A stretch of 64,000 bases of DNA, from NCBI RefSeq assembly GCF_014467015.1, contig NZ_CP058559.1, positions 2,294,001 to 2,358,000 of the forward strand. Direction: 5' to 3'. The stretch comes from Alkalicella caledoniensis (GTDB lineage Bacteria > Bacillota > Proteinivoracia > Proteinivoracales > Proteinivoracaceae). Below are positions 57,105-63,756 of the stretch, in pieces (position 1 is the stretch's first letter; the number at the start of each line of letters is the position of its first letter). Below the pieces are notes generated by a model. That model was given only the letters and a program-made list of their open reading frames with translations. It was not told the origin of the DNA and made no database searches. Position numbers and translations under genes: made by a program.

Positions 57105-57599
57105 ATGCCTAGAACTAGCAAGTATAGTCAAGATTTTATAGATACAGTTTTAAAGAGGCTTGAGCCCCCTTCATCAGAGACAGTGAATGATTTATCAGAA
57201 GAGTTAGGGATACCAAGCTCAACTATCTATACATGGGTAAAAAGGAGCAATGGTAGTTTAAGAAAGCAAAAACCAAAGGATAAGTGGACATCTAAGGATA
57301 AGTTTCATGTTGTTTTAGAGACAGCCACTCTATCGGAACTGCAACTAGCAGAGTATTGTAGGAGAAAAGGTCTTTATGTAGAGGAAGTTAAAGCTTGGAA
57401 AGAGCAATGTCTTAATGCAAATAATGAACCTGTAGAAGATACTAAGAAGATAAAGAGTGAGCTTAAAGAAGAGAAAATAAAAGCTAAAGAGCTAGAAAAA
57501 GAGCTTCGGATGAAAGAAAAGGCATTAGCTGAAACGGCTGCCTTATTGGTACTTAGAAAAAAGGCAAACGCGATTTGGGGGGACCCCGAGGAAGACTGA
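57105..57599 (+). CDS. IS3-like OrfA
   Basis: The 164-residue protein has an N-terminal HTH (VNDLSEELGIPSSTIYTWVK) and a Leu/Lys/Glu-rich coiled coil (residues 115-155), typical of IS3-family OrfA DNA-binding proteins. The 3' end overlaps orfB by 25 bases. ATG follows AAGGAGAGAG. Confidence 0.85.
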   Translation: MPRTSKYSQDFIDTVLKRLEPPSSETVNDLSEELGIPSSTIYTWVKRSNGSLRKQKPKDKWTSKDKFHVVLETATLSELQLAEYCRRKGLYVEEVKAWKEQCLNANNEPVEDTKKIKSELKEEKIKAKELEKELRMKEKALAETAALLVLRKKANAIWGDPEED

Positions 57600-58663
57600 T
57601 CAGTGACTCAGATCGTGTTGAAGCAGTAAAGCTGATCAAAGAGGCCGTAGATAGTGGTGCTAGATTAAGACCAGCCTGTGCAGAGCTTAATATAAGCGAT
57701 AGAACCTATCAGCGTTGGTCTAAGGGAAATGAAGTGAAAAAGGATCAACGTCCGTTGGCGCAAAGGCCTGTTCCCAAAAACAAGTTAAGCGATGAAGAAC
57801 GCTCCATAATACTAGATACGGTAAATAGCCCCGAGTACGCTGACCTACCTCCCTCTCAGATTGTACCGAAGTTAGCTAACGAGGGTAAATATCTTGCTTC
57901 CGAATCGACAATTTACCGAATATTGAGAGAAGAAAAAATGAATGCACATAGATCTAAAACTAAAGAGCCTATAAAAAAGGAAGCTCCTACACATATTGCG
58001 ACAGCTCCAAATAAGGTATGGACATGGGACATAACCTGGTTGAATGCTTCTGTAAAAGGTGCTTACTTTAAGCTATATTTAATCTTGGATATGTTTAGTA
58101 GAATGATAGTGGCGTACGAAGTTTGGGAGTCAGAAAAAGCAGAATATGCAGAGCAACTAGTAAGAAAAGCAACCTTGTCACAAGGCATAGCTGGAAGACC
58201 CCTGGTCCTTCATTCTGATAACGGTAGCCCAATGAAAGCTGCTACATTTCAAGCAACCCTAGAAAAGCTTGGTATCCAAAGCTCATTTTCTAGACCTAGG
58301 GTAAGTAATGATAATCCGTACTCTGAATCACTATTTAAAACGATGAAGTATGTTCCGAAGTACCCTACTATAGGGTTTCAATCAATAGATGAAGCAAGGA
58401 AATGGGTAAGAAAATTTGTAAGTTGGTACAACAACGAGCATTTGCATAGTGGTATTAAGTTTATAACACCCTATCAGAGACATTACGGTCTCGATAAGGC
58501 AATAATGGCTAAACGTATCGAAGCTTATAAACTAGCTCAACGAAAGCATCCTGAAAGGTGGGCTAGACATATCAGAAATTGGGAGTTGCCAGAGTTTGTG
58601 GCACTAAATCCTATTAAGGATGAAGAAGCCGTGGAACTTATTAGTCAGGAAGAGCAAGTGTAA
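57575..58663 (+). CDS. IS3-like OrfB transposase (rve domain)
   Basis: The roughly 362-residue frame has an HTH_21-like region and an integrase core with Asp in TWDITWL, Asp in LHSDNGSP and Glu in NPYSESLFK. It lies in -1 register relative to orfA. The overlap contains TTTGGGGGGACC and an upstream A6G run, either of which could be the slippage site for an OrfAB fusion. No own start with a ribosome site is evident. Confidence 0.85.
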   Translation: MGGPRGRLISDSDRVEAVKLIKEAVDSGARLRPACAELNISDRTYQRWSKGNEVKKDQRPLAQRPVPKNKLSDEERSIILDTVNSPEYADLPPSQIVPKLANEGKYLASESTIYRILREEKMNAHRSKTKEPIKKEAPTHIATAPNKVWTWDITWLNASVKGAYFKLYLILDMFSRMIVAYEVWESEKAEYAEQLVRKATLSQGIAGRPLVLHSDNGSPMKAATFQATLEKLGIQSSFSRPRVSNDNPYSESLFKTMKYVPKYPTIGFQSIDEARKWVRKFVSWYNNEHLHSGIKFITPYQRHYGLDKAIMAKRIEAYKLAQRKHPERWARHIRNWELPEFVALNPIKDEEAVELISQEEQV

Positions 58664-58842: not shown

Positions 58843-58871
58843 TTGACAAACACCGCTATATATGTTATTAT
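58843..58871 (+). promoter_or_regulatory. Hybrid promoter: -35 in the IS end, -10 outside
   Basis: TTGACA (58843-58848) is the last hexamer of the right inverted repeat; TATTAT lies exactly 17 bases on (58866-58871). It points at the selenoprotein gene 30 bases downstream. Confidence 0.65.
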
Positions 58872-58902
58872 ATTCACAAGTAAATTTTAAGGAGGTATCT
58901 AA

Positions 58903-59547
58903 ATGCGAGAAGAAAATCAAATTTCAAGGAAAAAGTTTCTTAAAGGGGTAGGGGCTACAGTTGCAAGTGTAGCAGTAGTGGGAACTATTGGGTCTGTACT
59001 AGCAGGATGCTCATCAGAAGCATCAGCGGATGTTGAAAAAGCGCAATGGCCATATCCTTACCAAAAGGTTGACTCCGCCGAGGCAGAGAAAATTGCTTAT
59101 AAAGGATACAAAGAAAAGGGTGGCTGAGGCATCGGCGTAGCCGACGGTCTGTTCGGCTTAATGGCAAAGGAAGTAGGATATCCTTACAATCAAGTACCTA
59201 TAGAAGCTTTTCAAAATGCAGGGGGAGGATATGGTCAAGGGACTCTTTGTGGTGCCTTAGGAGCAGCTTTTGCCTTTGTAGGTGCAGTTTGTGATCAGGA
59301 AACAGCAAAGAAGATAGTTTCAGAGCTTTCAAGGTGGTATAAAGTAGCAGAATTCCCTATTTATCAACCAGGTACACAGAATCCAACGACAGTAGCTGAG
59401 TCTGTTTTATGCTCAGAATCAGTTCTCAAGTTTATGGACGTAGCTGGAGTTGAGCACGGTTCAGATGAAAGGAAGGAACGTTGTGCAGGTCTTACAGCGG
59501 ATGTAGCTAAAAAGACAATAGAATTATTAAATGCCGAGATTGGATAG
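58903..59547 (+). CDS. Tat-exported selenoprotein of the C_GCAxxG_C_C family (UGA = Sec at residue 75)
   Basis: Translation of 58903-59547 gives 214 residues if the in-frame TGA at 59125-59127 is read as selenocysteine; there is no other stop. Residues 1-36 form a Tat-like signal (SRKKFLKG, then a hydrophobic stretch) ending in the lipobox LAGC. The joint reads KEKGG-U-GIGVADGLFGLMAKEVG, the place where homologues have Cys, followed by TLCGALGAA (the GCAxxG part) and two later Cys (VLCSES, ERCAGL). A SECIS-like hairpin follows the UGA. RK replaces the usual RR. tatA and tatC follow. ATG lies after AAGGAGG. The redox substrate is unknown. Confidence 0.9.
59128..59160 (+). promoter_or_regulatory. 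Bacterial SECIS element
   Basis: Twelve bases after the UGA begins GCCGA-CGGTCTGT-TCGGC (59140-59157), a perfect 5-bp GC stem whose loop contains GGTCTG, as in the E. coli fdhF SECIS. The stretch is strikingly GC-rich for this genome. Confidence 0.8.
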
Positions 59548-59813: not shown

Positions 59814-59999
59814 ATGTTCGGGAAAATTGGTGTGTCAGAACTTATTTTGATACTGGCTATAGCCCTTGTAATTTTTGGTCCCTCCAAACTGCCTGAAGTT
59901 GGTAAATCAATTGGAAAGGCTATAAAAGAATTCAAATCCCATGCAAATAAAGTAACAGAAGATTTACAGGTGGATTCTGATGTTCAAGAAAAGAAGTAA
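59814..59999 (+). CDS. tatA: Sec-independent translocase TatA
   Basis: The 61-residue protein has one N-terminal membrane helix ([24 protein letters not shown]) with the conserved FGPSKLP hinge, an amphipathic helix and a charged tail. It forms the pore-like part of the Tat exporter. ATG follows AGGAGG. It overlaps tatC by 20 bases. Its place right after a gene for a Tat-signal protein suggests a dedicated TatAC pair. Confidence 0.93.
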
Positions 60000-60714
60000 T
60001 CAAGTACAAGAAAAAGAAATGACATTAGTAGGACATCTAGCTGAATTGAGAAAGAGGATAATATATTCTGCTATCTTCTTTCTTTTGTCTGCAGTCTTTT
60101 GCTATAATTTTTCCACAAGGATAATTAACGAAATAGTGGATATAGCAAAGGATGTAGAATTTATTTTCATTGCCCCCGCTGAACTATTTATGTCCCATAT
60201 TAAGCTCGCACTAACGGGAGGTTTAATTATTTCTTTACCCTTTTTAACATTTCAAATATGGTTGTTTGTTGTACCTGGGATGAAAAAGAGAGAGAAAAGG
60301 TATATTCTATTATCATTATTTATGGGAGGCATGTTTTTTGTTGCTGGTGCTGTATTTGCGTATATGATCGTTATACCAATAATACTGAAATTCTTTATAG
60401 GATTTCAGACAGACGCAATTAAACCCATGATTACTTTTAGTAATTATCTAAACTTTATATTTAGTACCATTCTTTCATTTGGAGCTGTTTTTGAACTACC
60501 CATTGTAATGATTCTATTAACTCGCTTTGGGATTCTTAAAGTAAGTTTCTTGAAAAAAAGCAGAAAGTATATCATATTGATAATAATCGTATTATCAGCT
60601 CTATTAACACCACCGGATATCATTTCTCAAATACTTCTGTCCGGTCCTATGATATTACTTGCTGAATTTGGGATACTATTATCTAGCTTAGTAGAAAAGA
60701 AAAAGAAAGAATAG
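59980..60714 (+). CDS. tatC: Sec-independent translocase TatC
   Basis: The 244-residue protein has six membrane segments and the TatC hallmarks HLAELRKRI at the N-terminus, [16 protein letters not shown], the loop [12 protein letters not shown] and [15 protein letters not shown]. It recognises twin-arginine signals. ATG lies inside tatA after AGGTGG. With tatA it makes a minimal two-component system of the Gram-positive type. Confidence 0.95.
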
Positions 60715-60777
60715 TTTAAGTAGAATTTATAACATAAAAGCCAAAAAAATATAGTGAATTTGAGAGGAGATTTTAAA

Positions 60778-61188
60778 ATGAAGAAAATATTAGTTTTAAT
60801 GTTAATTGCACTTATGTTCATGACATTAACTGGATGTGGAGCTAGTGATTCTCAAGAATCAAATGGAGAAAATCCTCCTGTGAGTGAAAATAACGACTCG
60901 GGCTCTGATGAAGTGGTAGAATATATTGATGGGGTGTATGAAGGGGAAAGTTACGGCTACAAAGCTCAAATAAAGGTTAGTGTAGAGGTAACTGATGGAA
61001 AAATAAGCAAAGTAGAGATTTTAGAGCAAGATGAAACTGAATCAATCGCTGGCCCTGCCCTAGAGCAAACACCTTCTGCCATTGTTGAAAAAAACTCAAC
61101 TGACGTTGAGGTAGTATCTGGAGCGACGTTAACCAGTGAGGGAATAATCAATGCTGTTAAAAATGCCTTAGAAAATGCCAAAAAATAA
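60778..61188 (+). CDS. FMN-binding lipoprotein
   Basis: The 136-residue protein has a lipoprotein signal (LMLIALMFMTLTGCG, Cys at about residue 18), a short Ser/Glu/Asn-rich linker and one FMN-bind domain. The motif SGATLTS near residue 118 matches the D/S-G-A-T-x-T/S site where ApbE attaches FMN to Thr. It would sit outside the membrane and pass electrons. ATG 60778 follows GAGAGGAG. Its position between tatC and the YedE genes suggests it serves the selenoprotein or the imported sulfur/selenium compound. Confidence 0.82.
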   Translation: MKKILVLMLIALMFMTLTGCGASDSQESNGENPPVSENNDSGSDEVVEYIDGVYEGESYGYKAQIKVSVEVTDGKISKVEILEQDETESIAGPALEQTPSAIVEKNSTDVEVVSGATLTSEGIINAVKNALENAKK

Positions 61189-61238: not shown

Positions 61239-61360
61239 TCGTCTTTCCATATTTTCACAGAGGAGATTTTTCAGGATTTGTCGAATATAAAGTTTAACTG
61301 GTGAATTATTTCACACTAGTTTATTTAGAAAATATTTCAGTAAGCTCAGGGGGTGGTACT

Positions 61361-62065
61361 ATGTCTTCTAGTAGAATTGAAGAATTAAAAAGGCAAAGGC
61401 AAGCTAAAGTCACCAAAAGAGGATCTCAATCACCATATGCAATTGTAGTGACAGTGGTAGTTAGTACAATATATTTGGTTCTTATTAAACATAACATATA
61501 CCTAAGTACTTTTTGGATTATTGGAATTTTGATTGGTATTACTTTACAAAGATCTCGATTCTGTTTTGCAGCTAGCTTTAGAGATCCAATTATGGTGGGA
61601 AACTCATCACTTTTCAAAACAATTATTTTATCATTTATCATTTCAACAATAGCGTTTTTTATGATCCAATATCGAACTGCGGTAATAAACCCTGATTATT
61701 TGCTCACTGACATCCCTGGACAGCTAAAACCCGTGGGTTTGCATACTGCACTTGGAGCTATATTGTTTGGAGGGGGAATGGTCGTCGCCGGGGGATGTGC
61801 TTCAGGGACATTGGTACGAATAGGGGAAGGATATATAATGCAGGTGGTAGTTTTAGTAGGGTTTATCATAGGTACTGTCATGGGAGCCATGCACTTTCCC
61901 TTTTGGGATAGTATTCTTATTTCTAAAGCACCAACTATCTATATACCGAAATATTTAGGTTTTTTTCCAGCATTAATTTTTCAGTTAATACTACTTGGTA
62001 TTTTGTATTTAGTTGCACACTGGTATGATAAAAAAAATAATATTATGACCATGCAGGAGGAATAG
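61361..62065 (+). CDS. YeeE/YedE-family membrane protein, half 1
   Basis: The 234-residue protein has a basic N-terminus and about six membrane segments. The conserved Cys-containing motif of the family is in RSRFCFAASFRDPIM and in VVAGGCASGTLVRIGEGY. YeeE/YedE proteins such as TsuA import thiosulfate; others are linked to selenium metabolism. ATG 61361 follows AGGGGGTGG. The TusA-like gene starts 1 base after its stop, so the pair is translationally coupled. Confidence 0.82.
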   Translation: MSSSRIEELKRQRQAKVTKRGSQSPYAIVVTVVVSTIYLVLIKHNIYLSTFWIIGILIGITLQRSRFCFAASFRDPIMVGNSSLFKTIILSFIISTIAFFMIQYRTAVINPDYLLTDIPGQLKPVGLHTALGAILFGGGMVVAGGCASGTLVRIGEGYIMQVVVLVGFIIGTVMGAMHFPFWDSILISKAPTIYIPKYLGFFPALIFQLILLGILYLVAHWYDKKNNIMTMQEE

Positions 62066-62066
62066 T

Positions 62067-62294
62067 ATGGCTGAGTACACGTTAGATTGTTTATATGAGG
62101 CATGTCCGATACCTTTGTTAAAGGCCCTAAAGCAACTTAATAAAATGAATATTGGTGATATTTTAATCATGCATACTGACCATAATTGTTCTATTATTCA
62201 TGTTGTAGAATGGACAAAAAAGGAAGGACACTATATTGACTATATAGAAATAGCAGAAGGTGAATGGGAAATCTATATTGAAAAAGCAAAATAA
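62067..62294 (+). CDS. TusA/YedF-like sulfur-carrier protein
   Basis: The 75-residue protein has the TusA fold signature with the active Cys in EACPIPLLKALKQL (CPxP motif, about residue 13). TusA-type proteins carry a persulfide or a selenium equivalent on this Cys. It lies between two YeeE/YedE halves, which suggests it takes the imported group directly from the membrane protein, as TsuB is thought to do for TsuA. Confidence 0.85.
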   Translation: MAEYTLDCLYEACPIPLLKALKQLNKMNIGDILIMHTDHNCSIIHVVEWTKKEGHYIDYIEIAEGEWEIYIEKAK

Positions 62295-62314
62295 GTATAA
62301 TAAGGGGGAGGAAA

Positions 62315-62833
62315 TTGGAGATTTATAAAAAAGTTTTCAAAGAACCATGGCCCTATTGGGTAGGAGCAATTATTTTGGCATTACTAAATATTATTCTATT
62401 AACTACTACGGGCTCCTCATGGCGGATAACCGCAGGTTTTTTAAATTGGGGCTCATTATTTTTAGAAAAAATAGGATTTGACCCTGCCAGCTGGTACTAT
62501 TTTCAGGTGTATGATCACGGTTTAAAAGATGGAGAAACTTTTTTCATGAATTATTATACAATTATTAATATAGCAATTATAATAGGTGGGCTTTTATCAG
62601 TATTATGGGCAAATGAATTTAAGTGGAAAAAAATTAAGAGCCTAAAGCAATTCCTATTTGCTTTAGGTGGCGGAATTATTATGGGGTATGGTACACGGCT
62701 AAGTTTTGGTTGCAATATAGGAGCTTACTTCTCCGCTATACCTTCCTTTTCTTTGCATGGATGGGTGTTCGCTATCTTTATGTTTGTTGGTGCTTGGATA
62801 GGTGTGAAAATACTCCTAAAATATATTATATAA
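62315..62833 (+). CDS. YeeE/YedE-family membrane protein, half 2
   Basis: The 172-residue protein has four or five membrane segments and the family motif GYGTRLSFGCNIGAYFSAI, with the conserved Cys in FGCNIG. Together with the first half it would make the full set of helices of a long YedE protein, so this is probably a split transporter. TTG 62315 follows GGGGGAGGA. It ends the operon before a two-way terminator. Confidence 0.8.
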   Translation: MEIYKKVFKEPWPYWVGAIILALLNIILLTTTGSSWRITAGFLNWGSLFLEKIGFDPASWYYFQVYDHGLKDGETFFMNYYTIINIAIIIGGLLSVLWANEFKWKKIKSLKQFLFALGGGIIMGYGTRLSFGCNIGAYFSAIPSFSLHGWVFAIFMFVGAWIGVKILLKYII

Positions 62834-62835
62834 GT

Positions 62836-62868
62836 AAAAGGTAGCCAATAATTTAGGCTACCTTTTTA
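62836..62868. terminator. Bidirectional terminator
   Basis: AAAAGGTAGCC and GGCTACCTTTTT form an 11-bp stem with T runs on both strands, between the YedE half and the convergent lysR. Confidence 0.88.
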
Positions 62869-63756
62869 ACAAAATCCTCGTTTGCCAGACTTAATAAAAT
62901 TGATAAAATCCTTTTCATAGCTTGTTAATAGATGACCTTTACGATAGGCCACATAGAAATCACTTTGTAAGTTAAGGTTTTCAACTTCTATTTCCCGTAA
63001 AACACTATCCTTAAGCTCTCGCTTTATAGTTAATTCAGGGACAAAAGAGATTCCCTTTCCTGAGATAATTGAGGACTTGATTGCCTCCATAGAGTTCAAT
63101 TGATAGATAATGTTTAAGTTCTCTAAACCTATGTTATATTTTGATAAACATTCAGAGATTGTTCTTCTTGCGCCAGATCCAGTTTCTCTGAAGATCAGCG
63201 GCAATTTACACAATTCCTTCAATGTAATCTTGCTTCTTAACATAGGCAGAGATGTTACTAAGAGCAACTTATCAGAAGTTATTTTCTCCATTATAATATC
63301 CTTTTGTTCTACGAAGTTTTGAATAATCCCGAGGTTAATAGTCCTATCAGATAGTTTCTTTAGTACATCCTCTGTATTAGCAATATCATAATCTATATAA
63401 ACTTCAGGATGAGCCTGTTTGTAAACATATATACTACAAGGAAGAGCATATTCACCGATTGCTTTACATGACCCGATAATCAGTTCTTTTTTGCTAGTTT
63501 TTAGATTCTCTAAGTCTCGCTCAATATTATGTTGCATTGAAAGCATAGTATCAGCATAATCAAAAACTACTTTCCCAGCTTCCGTAAGTTCAACACCTTT
63601 ATTACTTCTAATAAGTAACATGACCTCCAATTCCTTTTCCAATGATTGTATCTGCATACTAAGACCTGGTTGAGTCAAATGTAGTTCTTTGGCTGCTTTA
63701 GAGATACTATTTAGTTTAACAGTAATATAAAAAGCCTTTAAATATTGTAGATTCAT
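62866..63756 (-). CDS. LysR-family regulator (selenium/sulfur-associated type)
   Basis: The 296-residue protein has an N-terminal winged HTH (NSISKAAKELHLTQPGLSMQ, then IQSLEKELEVMLLIRSNKGV) and a periplasmic-binding-like effector domain. Close relatives in selenium-using anaerobes sit next to yedE/yedF and are annotated as selenium-metabolism LysR regulators; this is from memory. It converges on the YedE-TusA operon. A perfect 21-bp inverted repeat lies 40 bases upstream. Confidence 0.85.
   Translation of the reverse strand: MNLQYLKAFYITVKLNSISKAAKELHLTQPGLSMQIQSLEKELEVMLLIRSNKGVELTEAGKVVFDYADTMLSMQHNIERDLENLKTSKKELIIGSCKAIGEYALPCSIYVYKQAHPEVYIDYDIANTEDVLKKLSDRTINLGIIQNFVEQKDIIMEKITSDKLLLVTSLPMLRSKITLKELCKLPLIFRETGSGARRTISECLSKYNIGLENLNIIYQLNSMEAIKSSIISGKGISFVPELTIKRELKDSVLREIEVENLNLQSDFYVAYRKGHLLTSYEKDFINFIKSGKRGFC

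Follow-up and report, generated by a model that had tools for sequence, protein, structure and literature searches.

A predicted selenoprotein gene of the C_GCAxxG_C_C family, with kinship to split-Soret cytochrome c, beside the Tat genes of Alkalicella caledoniensis

The window, by which I mean the whole 64,000-nucleotide stretch of Alkalicella caledoniensis DNA that was analysed, carries at 58903-59547 a single open frame on the forward strand (as are all features below unless the reverse strand is named), and the sole interruption of this frame is a TGA at 59125-59127, the codon of residue 75. The read-through frame runs from 58903 to 59544, ends at a TAG terminator (59545-59547) and gives a product of 214 aa, a haem-less split-Soret-like / C_GCAxxG_C_C protein as judged by its frame, its match to PF09719, its homologues and the fold of PDB entry 1h21. 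Conventional ORF calling splits the gene into two ORFs, 58903-59127 and 59161-59547, and the proposal of the initial annotation that these are one gene divided by a TGA is borne out, the rest of the frame being open. Upstream, a consensus scan locates a sigma-70-like promoter (58843-58871; TTGACA-17-TATTAT, 11 of 12 consensus positions), and a ribosome-binding site, AGGAGG (58890-58895), can be read 7 nt 5' of the ATG. When the 64-kb window was scanned mechanically for TGA-joined frames, the result was this gene plus a single further frame, at 45-512 on the reverse strand and 156 codons long. An insertion sequence (57105-58663, with HTH_Tnp_1 and rve integrase ORFs) sits directly 5' of the promoter, and in several related genomes a LysR gene occupies its place.

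Downstream lie tatA (59814-59999; Pfam PF02416 and NCBIfam), tatC (59980-60714; TIGR00945 with 203 bits against a cut-off of 132.7), which is the genome's only one by a single match and starts 0.4 kb beyond the gene, and a lipoprotein with an FMN-binding domain (60754-61188; PF04205) that weakly resembles PplA, a protein of extracellular electron transfer. These are followed by the C-terminal half of a YedE/YeeE protein (61301-62065; NF033796 positions 178-383, below cut-off), a TusA-type sulfurtransferase (62067-62294; PF01206), the N-terminal YedE/YeeE half (62315-62833; NF033796 positions 2-159, below cut-off) and, on the reverse strand, a regulator whose nearest match is the selenium-metabolism LysR family (62866-63756; NF040786 at 237 bits, cut-off 250). 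The order within this split YedE (61301-62833), in which TusA separates a leading C-terminal half from a trailing N-terminal half, is shared by relatives; a split YedE has been reported in archaea, and YedE and a LysR subfamily have been linked to selenium (PMC5322559). The cluster resembles the published YedE/YedF/LysR_Se genes (PMC5322559) in bringing YedE halves, TusA and such a LysR together; however, the LysR and YedE proteins of the window score below the selenium-specific cut-offs, the YedE halves and TusA match selenium and thiosulfate models alike and weakly, and YedF is defined by an additional DsrE half, which the 75-aa TusA does not have. The same downstream genes stand, in other orders, beside relatives in many genomes, and YedE/Tat genes are absent near many relatives: Tat or YedE is nearby in 13 of the 19 loci (those with 4-kb flanks) that encode haem-less UGA proteins, in 5 of 16 haem-bearing UGA loci and in 3 of 15 haem-bearing Cys loci.

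How the TGA is read can be approached through the homologues, and in a first sample drawn from 398 genomes of the phylum the codon at site 75, the first Cys of C_GCAxxG_C_C, is TGA in 22 of 60 aligned sequences and Cys in the other 38, with no other residue, so the cysteine that had been predicted for this position in homologues is indeed there, and a site confined to TGA or Cys is the signature of selenocysteine (Sec). In a second collection, retrieved with an 8-row alignment as query (a 21-row alignment was too diverse, and a first scan of genome contigs with one protein as query gave no match), 34 of 35 loci carry the TGA, five of the 35 coming from genomes already in the first sample; the carriers include Sedimentibacter hydroxybenzoicus, S. 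saalensis, Alkaliphilus peptidifermentans, Tissierella sp. P1 and Anoxynatronum buryatiense. Proteins about 55% identical with the same TGA occur in two genomes from another genus of the same family of organisms, and dN/dS 3' of the TGA is 0.04-0.23 in ten pairs, which is purifying selection. A pseudogene or a sequencing error, in which the TGA would be a genuine early stop with decaying sequence behind it, might be suspected from the way ordinary annotation splits the frame and from the insertion sequence directly upstream, but dozens of genomes share the TGA at this very codon, and this together with strong selection beyond it and an intact promoter and ribosome-binding site leaves the reading with practically no credence, and it was rejected on the conservation of the TGA together with a downstream dN/dS far below 1.

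The machinery for Sec is present as well, since selA, selB, selD and tRNA-Sec (selC), for which the initial annotation had advised a check, were all found in the genome, and one stretch of about 5.4 kb carries selA, selB, a selenium-type LysR, selD and tRNA-Sec. The selD gene (L012:9441-10478) itself has an in-frame UGA at L012:9486 in the context STAAG-U-GAK, and grdA (L155) has one TGA within its family match, so the genome very probably decodes UGA as Sec elsewhere too; both genes are truncated by ordinary ORF calling. Among 18 sampled genomes with UGA at site 75, 17 have SelB and the one without it is a 110-contig draft whose congener has SelB, while the SelB-less genomes G306, G372 and G386 hold the Cys form only, a comparison that discriminates weakly because 51 of 55 comparison genomes have SelB. 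Any Sec codon could in principle give a short and a long product, and one may ask whether some other amino acid is inserted at the UGA, or whether a regulated truncation leaves a 74-residue peptide as the functional product; I consider this very improbable, given that the site holds TGA and Cys codons only, that the first 74 codons comprise just a signal peptide, a linker and one helix, and that the Sec machinery is complete.

A hairpin (59139-59158), supported by folding, by the bacterial SECIS (bSECIS) model and by covariation, begins 11-12 nt after the TGA and pairs AGCCGA (59139-59144) with UCGGCU (59153-59158) around the loop CGGUCUGU. The published model calls for a loop of 3-9 nt with G in loop positions 1-2, a stem of 4-16 bp, a spacing of 16-37 nt and an MFE of -7.5 or lower (PMC13188914), and the window hairpin satisfies all four constraints of that model with an 8-nt loop opening on CG, a 6-bp stem, 17 nt from UGA to loop and -7.8 kcal/mol. 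It had previously been drawn as a 5-bp GC hairpin with loop GGTCTG starting 12 bases after the UGA; the hairpin is real, but that 6-nt loop would require a closing C-U mismatch, and the strict loop has eight nucleotides. When strength is expressed as a z relative to synonymous recodings, the mean is -2.1 in UGA sequences (n=22) versus -0.3 in Cys sequences (n=38; Mann-Whitney p 2e-7), that is, hairpins after UGA beat their recodings and hairpins after Cys codons do not, although taken alone the window hairpin is modest (z -1.46, with 7% of synonymous recodings equally good). Across 41 sequences of the window's clade the stem is 95.8% paired, with changes on both sides at three pairs (the fourth pair, for example, turns from G-C to C-G in 5 of the 41), whereas slid controls are only 29-59% paired and none of 500 shuffles attains the observed pairing or covariation score; covariation was also run in a 13-sequence version. 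The full RNA of 42-51 nt has a more stable competing fold, which uses bases just 3' of the UGA that a decoding ribosome with the UGA in its A site would be expected to cover. A search of Rfam at the hairpin site returned no RNA family, and none is expected because bacterial SECIS elements vary between genes. Taken with the TGA/Cys-only site, the selection beyond the TGA and the sel genes, the hairpin strongly supports the original proposal that this UGA is read as Sec, and I hold it very probable, on evidence drawn from sequence, that UGA 59125-59127 encodes selenocysteine and that 58903-59547 is a selenoprotein gene.

The joint product scores 47.2 bits against PF09719 (C_GCAxxG_C_C), whose Pfam gathering cut-off is 27, in agreement with the family first assigned to it, and the four conserved cysteines of PF09719 are present with Sec in place of the first. 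By sequence, the closest solved structure is the split-Soret cytochrome c of Desulfovibrio desulfuricans (1h21, E 4e-30). A model of the structure, computed with the window protein and 31 relatives as input (mean pLDDT 84.9, above 90 in the core), superposes on 1h21 with a TM of 0.74 and an rmsd of 1.2 A over 172 columns at 38% identity, and comparison of this model with solved structures found nothing significant besides 1h21. Invariant in the 60 homologues are position 75 (Cys or Sec) and the cysteines 116 (59248-59250), 170 (59410-59412) and 194 (59482-59484), while Cys36 and Cys130 are not. Split-Soret cytochrome c has two c-type haem motifs, CxxCH, and a search of the window protein for this motif found none; the C-terminal pair is likewise absent from 27 UGA relatives, and most relatives beyond the window's own subgroup, whether Sec or Cys, possess both. 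The residue following Cys170 is Ser here, His in all 49 readable haem-bearing relatives and variable in the haem-less ones, so that loss of the haems went along with loss of a probable haem ligand. The score against NF047622, the split-Soret equivalog, is 142.7 bits against a curated cut-off of 400. The window protein thus shares with split-Soret cytochrome c (1h21, NF047622) the fold, the four Cys positions and a Tat-type signal, and differs in having neither C-terminal CxxCH motif, no His behind Cys170, and Sec for Cys; it belongs to the split-Soret cytochrome c / C_GCAxxG_C_C group as a member that carries no haem and consists of an all-helical domain.

In a tree of 90 sequences the haem-less UGA group falls in a clade where 42 rows have UGA and 3 have Cys; a second clade is made up of Cys proteins, among which 9 UGA rows are scattered, and at least six changes between Sec and Cys have to be placed on the tree. 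Many split-Soret-like relatives are of the dihaem type and have Sec in place of the first Cys, and such genes with UGA at the same site fall in separate lineages (L050, L051, L052, L053-L055, L057, L058); the hairpins of L050-L055, L057 and L058 differ from the window type in place and sequence. In Alkaliphilus sp. NP8 a paralogue (L099:5114-5653) beside the UGA gene is cleanly missing about 35-40 residues that include the Sec site.

At its N-terminus the protein carries a Tat-type motif, SRKKFLK (58924-58944, residues 8-14), and a lipobox, LAGC (58999-59010, residues 33-36), with Cys36 the presumed lipidation site, both being read from the sequence and its relatives. The Tat-like signal with lipobox claimed by the initial annotation stands as to the lipobox, but the Tat motif departs from the consensus S/T-R-R-x-F-L-K in having R-K for R-R. 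Of 26 readable haem-less UGA relatives 24 keep this R-K, haem-bearing relatives having mostly R-R, and none of the 28 haem-less UGA proteins lacks a lipobox. A natural R-K variant of the twin arginines is conserved across a whole clade whose genes often lie beside tatAC. With R-K conserved, the lipobox universal in the group and the sole tatC adjacent, these sequence features make export by Tat as a lipoprotein likely. Yet the Sec reading could be right and the protein leave the cytoplasm by general secretion, or stay there, with tatAC serving other substrates, as R-K instead of twin arginines, several relatives having no tat genes nearby and a TatC that is unique in the genome and so may serve other proteins would allow; I find this unlikely, because R-K is kept in a group whose haem-bearing relatives mostly have R-R, tat genes lie near 10 of the 19 haem-less UGA loci, and a selenolate or a preassembled metal centre would favour export in the folded state. 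The view that a Tat-exported, lipid-anchored selenoprotein would be rare is not supported, since the family already figures in published lists of predicted selenoproteins, dozens of relatives have the same layout and Tat-exported selenoproteins are known from Escherichia coli. These proteins, FdnG and FdoG, resemble the window protein in being selenoproteins exported folded by Tat and differ from it in being large molybdenum enzymes that are not lipoproteins and are unrelated to it in sequence.

What I infer of the function, cofactor and substrate can be put as a sequence of steps. SelB would bind the hairpin after the UGA so that the codon is decoded as selenocysteine, and the 214-residue product would most likely fold in the cytoplasm, where a metal centre would probably be loaded; TatAC, encoded next door, would then carry the folded selenoprotein across the membrane, and a lipid attached to Cys36 would anchor it on the outer side. 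In that position it may carry out redox chemistry with a sulfur or selenium compound, or may supply the electrons for a reaction of this kind, its gene lying beside those for YedE/TusA uptake, and the FMN-domain lipoprotein is a possible electron partner. I consider this sulfur or selenium redox role, suggested by fold and gene context, to be evenly poised between right and wrong. The title of PDB entry 1h21 names an iron centre in split-Soret cytochrome c, and because of this centre and the four invariant positions I conjecture that Sec75 is a candidate metal ligand. A metal-free enzyme of thiol type, in which Sec75 and a Cys form a selenenylsulfide and a sulfur or selenium compound or a peroxide is reduced directly, is a competing reading that I would put at rather less than an even chance: in other selenoproteins Sec is usually the attacking redox residue and the YedE/TusA neighbours indicate sulfur or selenium chemistry, but a UxxC or CxxU motif is absent and the four invariant Cys/Sec are widely spaced, as in split-Soret cytochrome c with its reported iron centre. 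In its fullest form the metal-centre reading has a haem-less split-Soret core with Sec as a natural iron-sulfur ligand, which its own Tat system would export as a lipoprotein by way of the conserved R-K signal and which would reduce extracellular sulfur or selenium compounds that YedE/TusA then take up; this is speculative and, as a whole, doubtful.

The gene had been presented as an undeclared selenoprotein, which is not so for the family: C-GCAxxG-C-C (PF09719) is listed as a predicted selenoprotein in two reviews, in forms 1 and 2, with WP_012158890.1 as an example of form 2, in lists that give no Sec motif, site, SECIS, export signal or context (PMC9312934, PMC13188914). The listed selenoprotein and the window protein share the Pfam family, and each has a predicted Sec residue. 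Relatives of the window protein occur in Alkaliphilus (L092, L095, L099), and WP_012158890.1 belongs to Alkaliphilus oremlandii. A search of the literature library found no paper joining selenoproteins with split-Soret cytochromes, and what is new here is the split-Soret kinship, the covarying SECIS, the repeated exchange of Sec and Cys, and the linkage to Tat and an uptake locus. The gene is also a clear example of how ordinary gene calling yields two false ORFs. A family that previously stood in lists without motif, partner or role now has evidence that, of the four invariant, ligand-type residues in a split-Soret fold, Sec is the first, and the Sec site, the SECIS and the Tat/uptake locus together make an extracytoplasmic role in sulfur or selenium metabolism directly testable.
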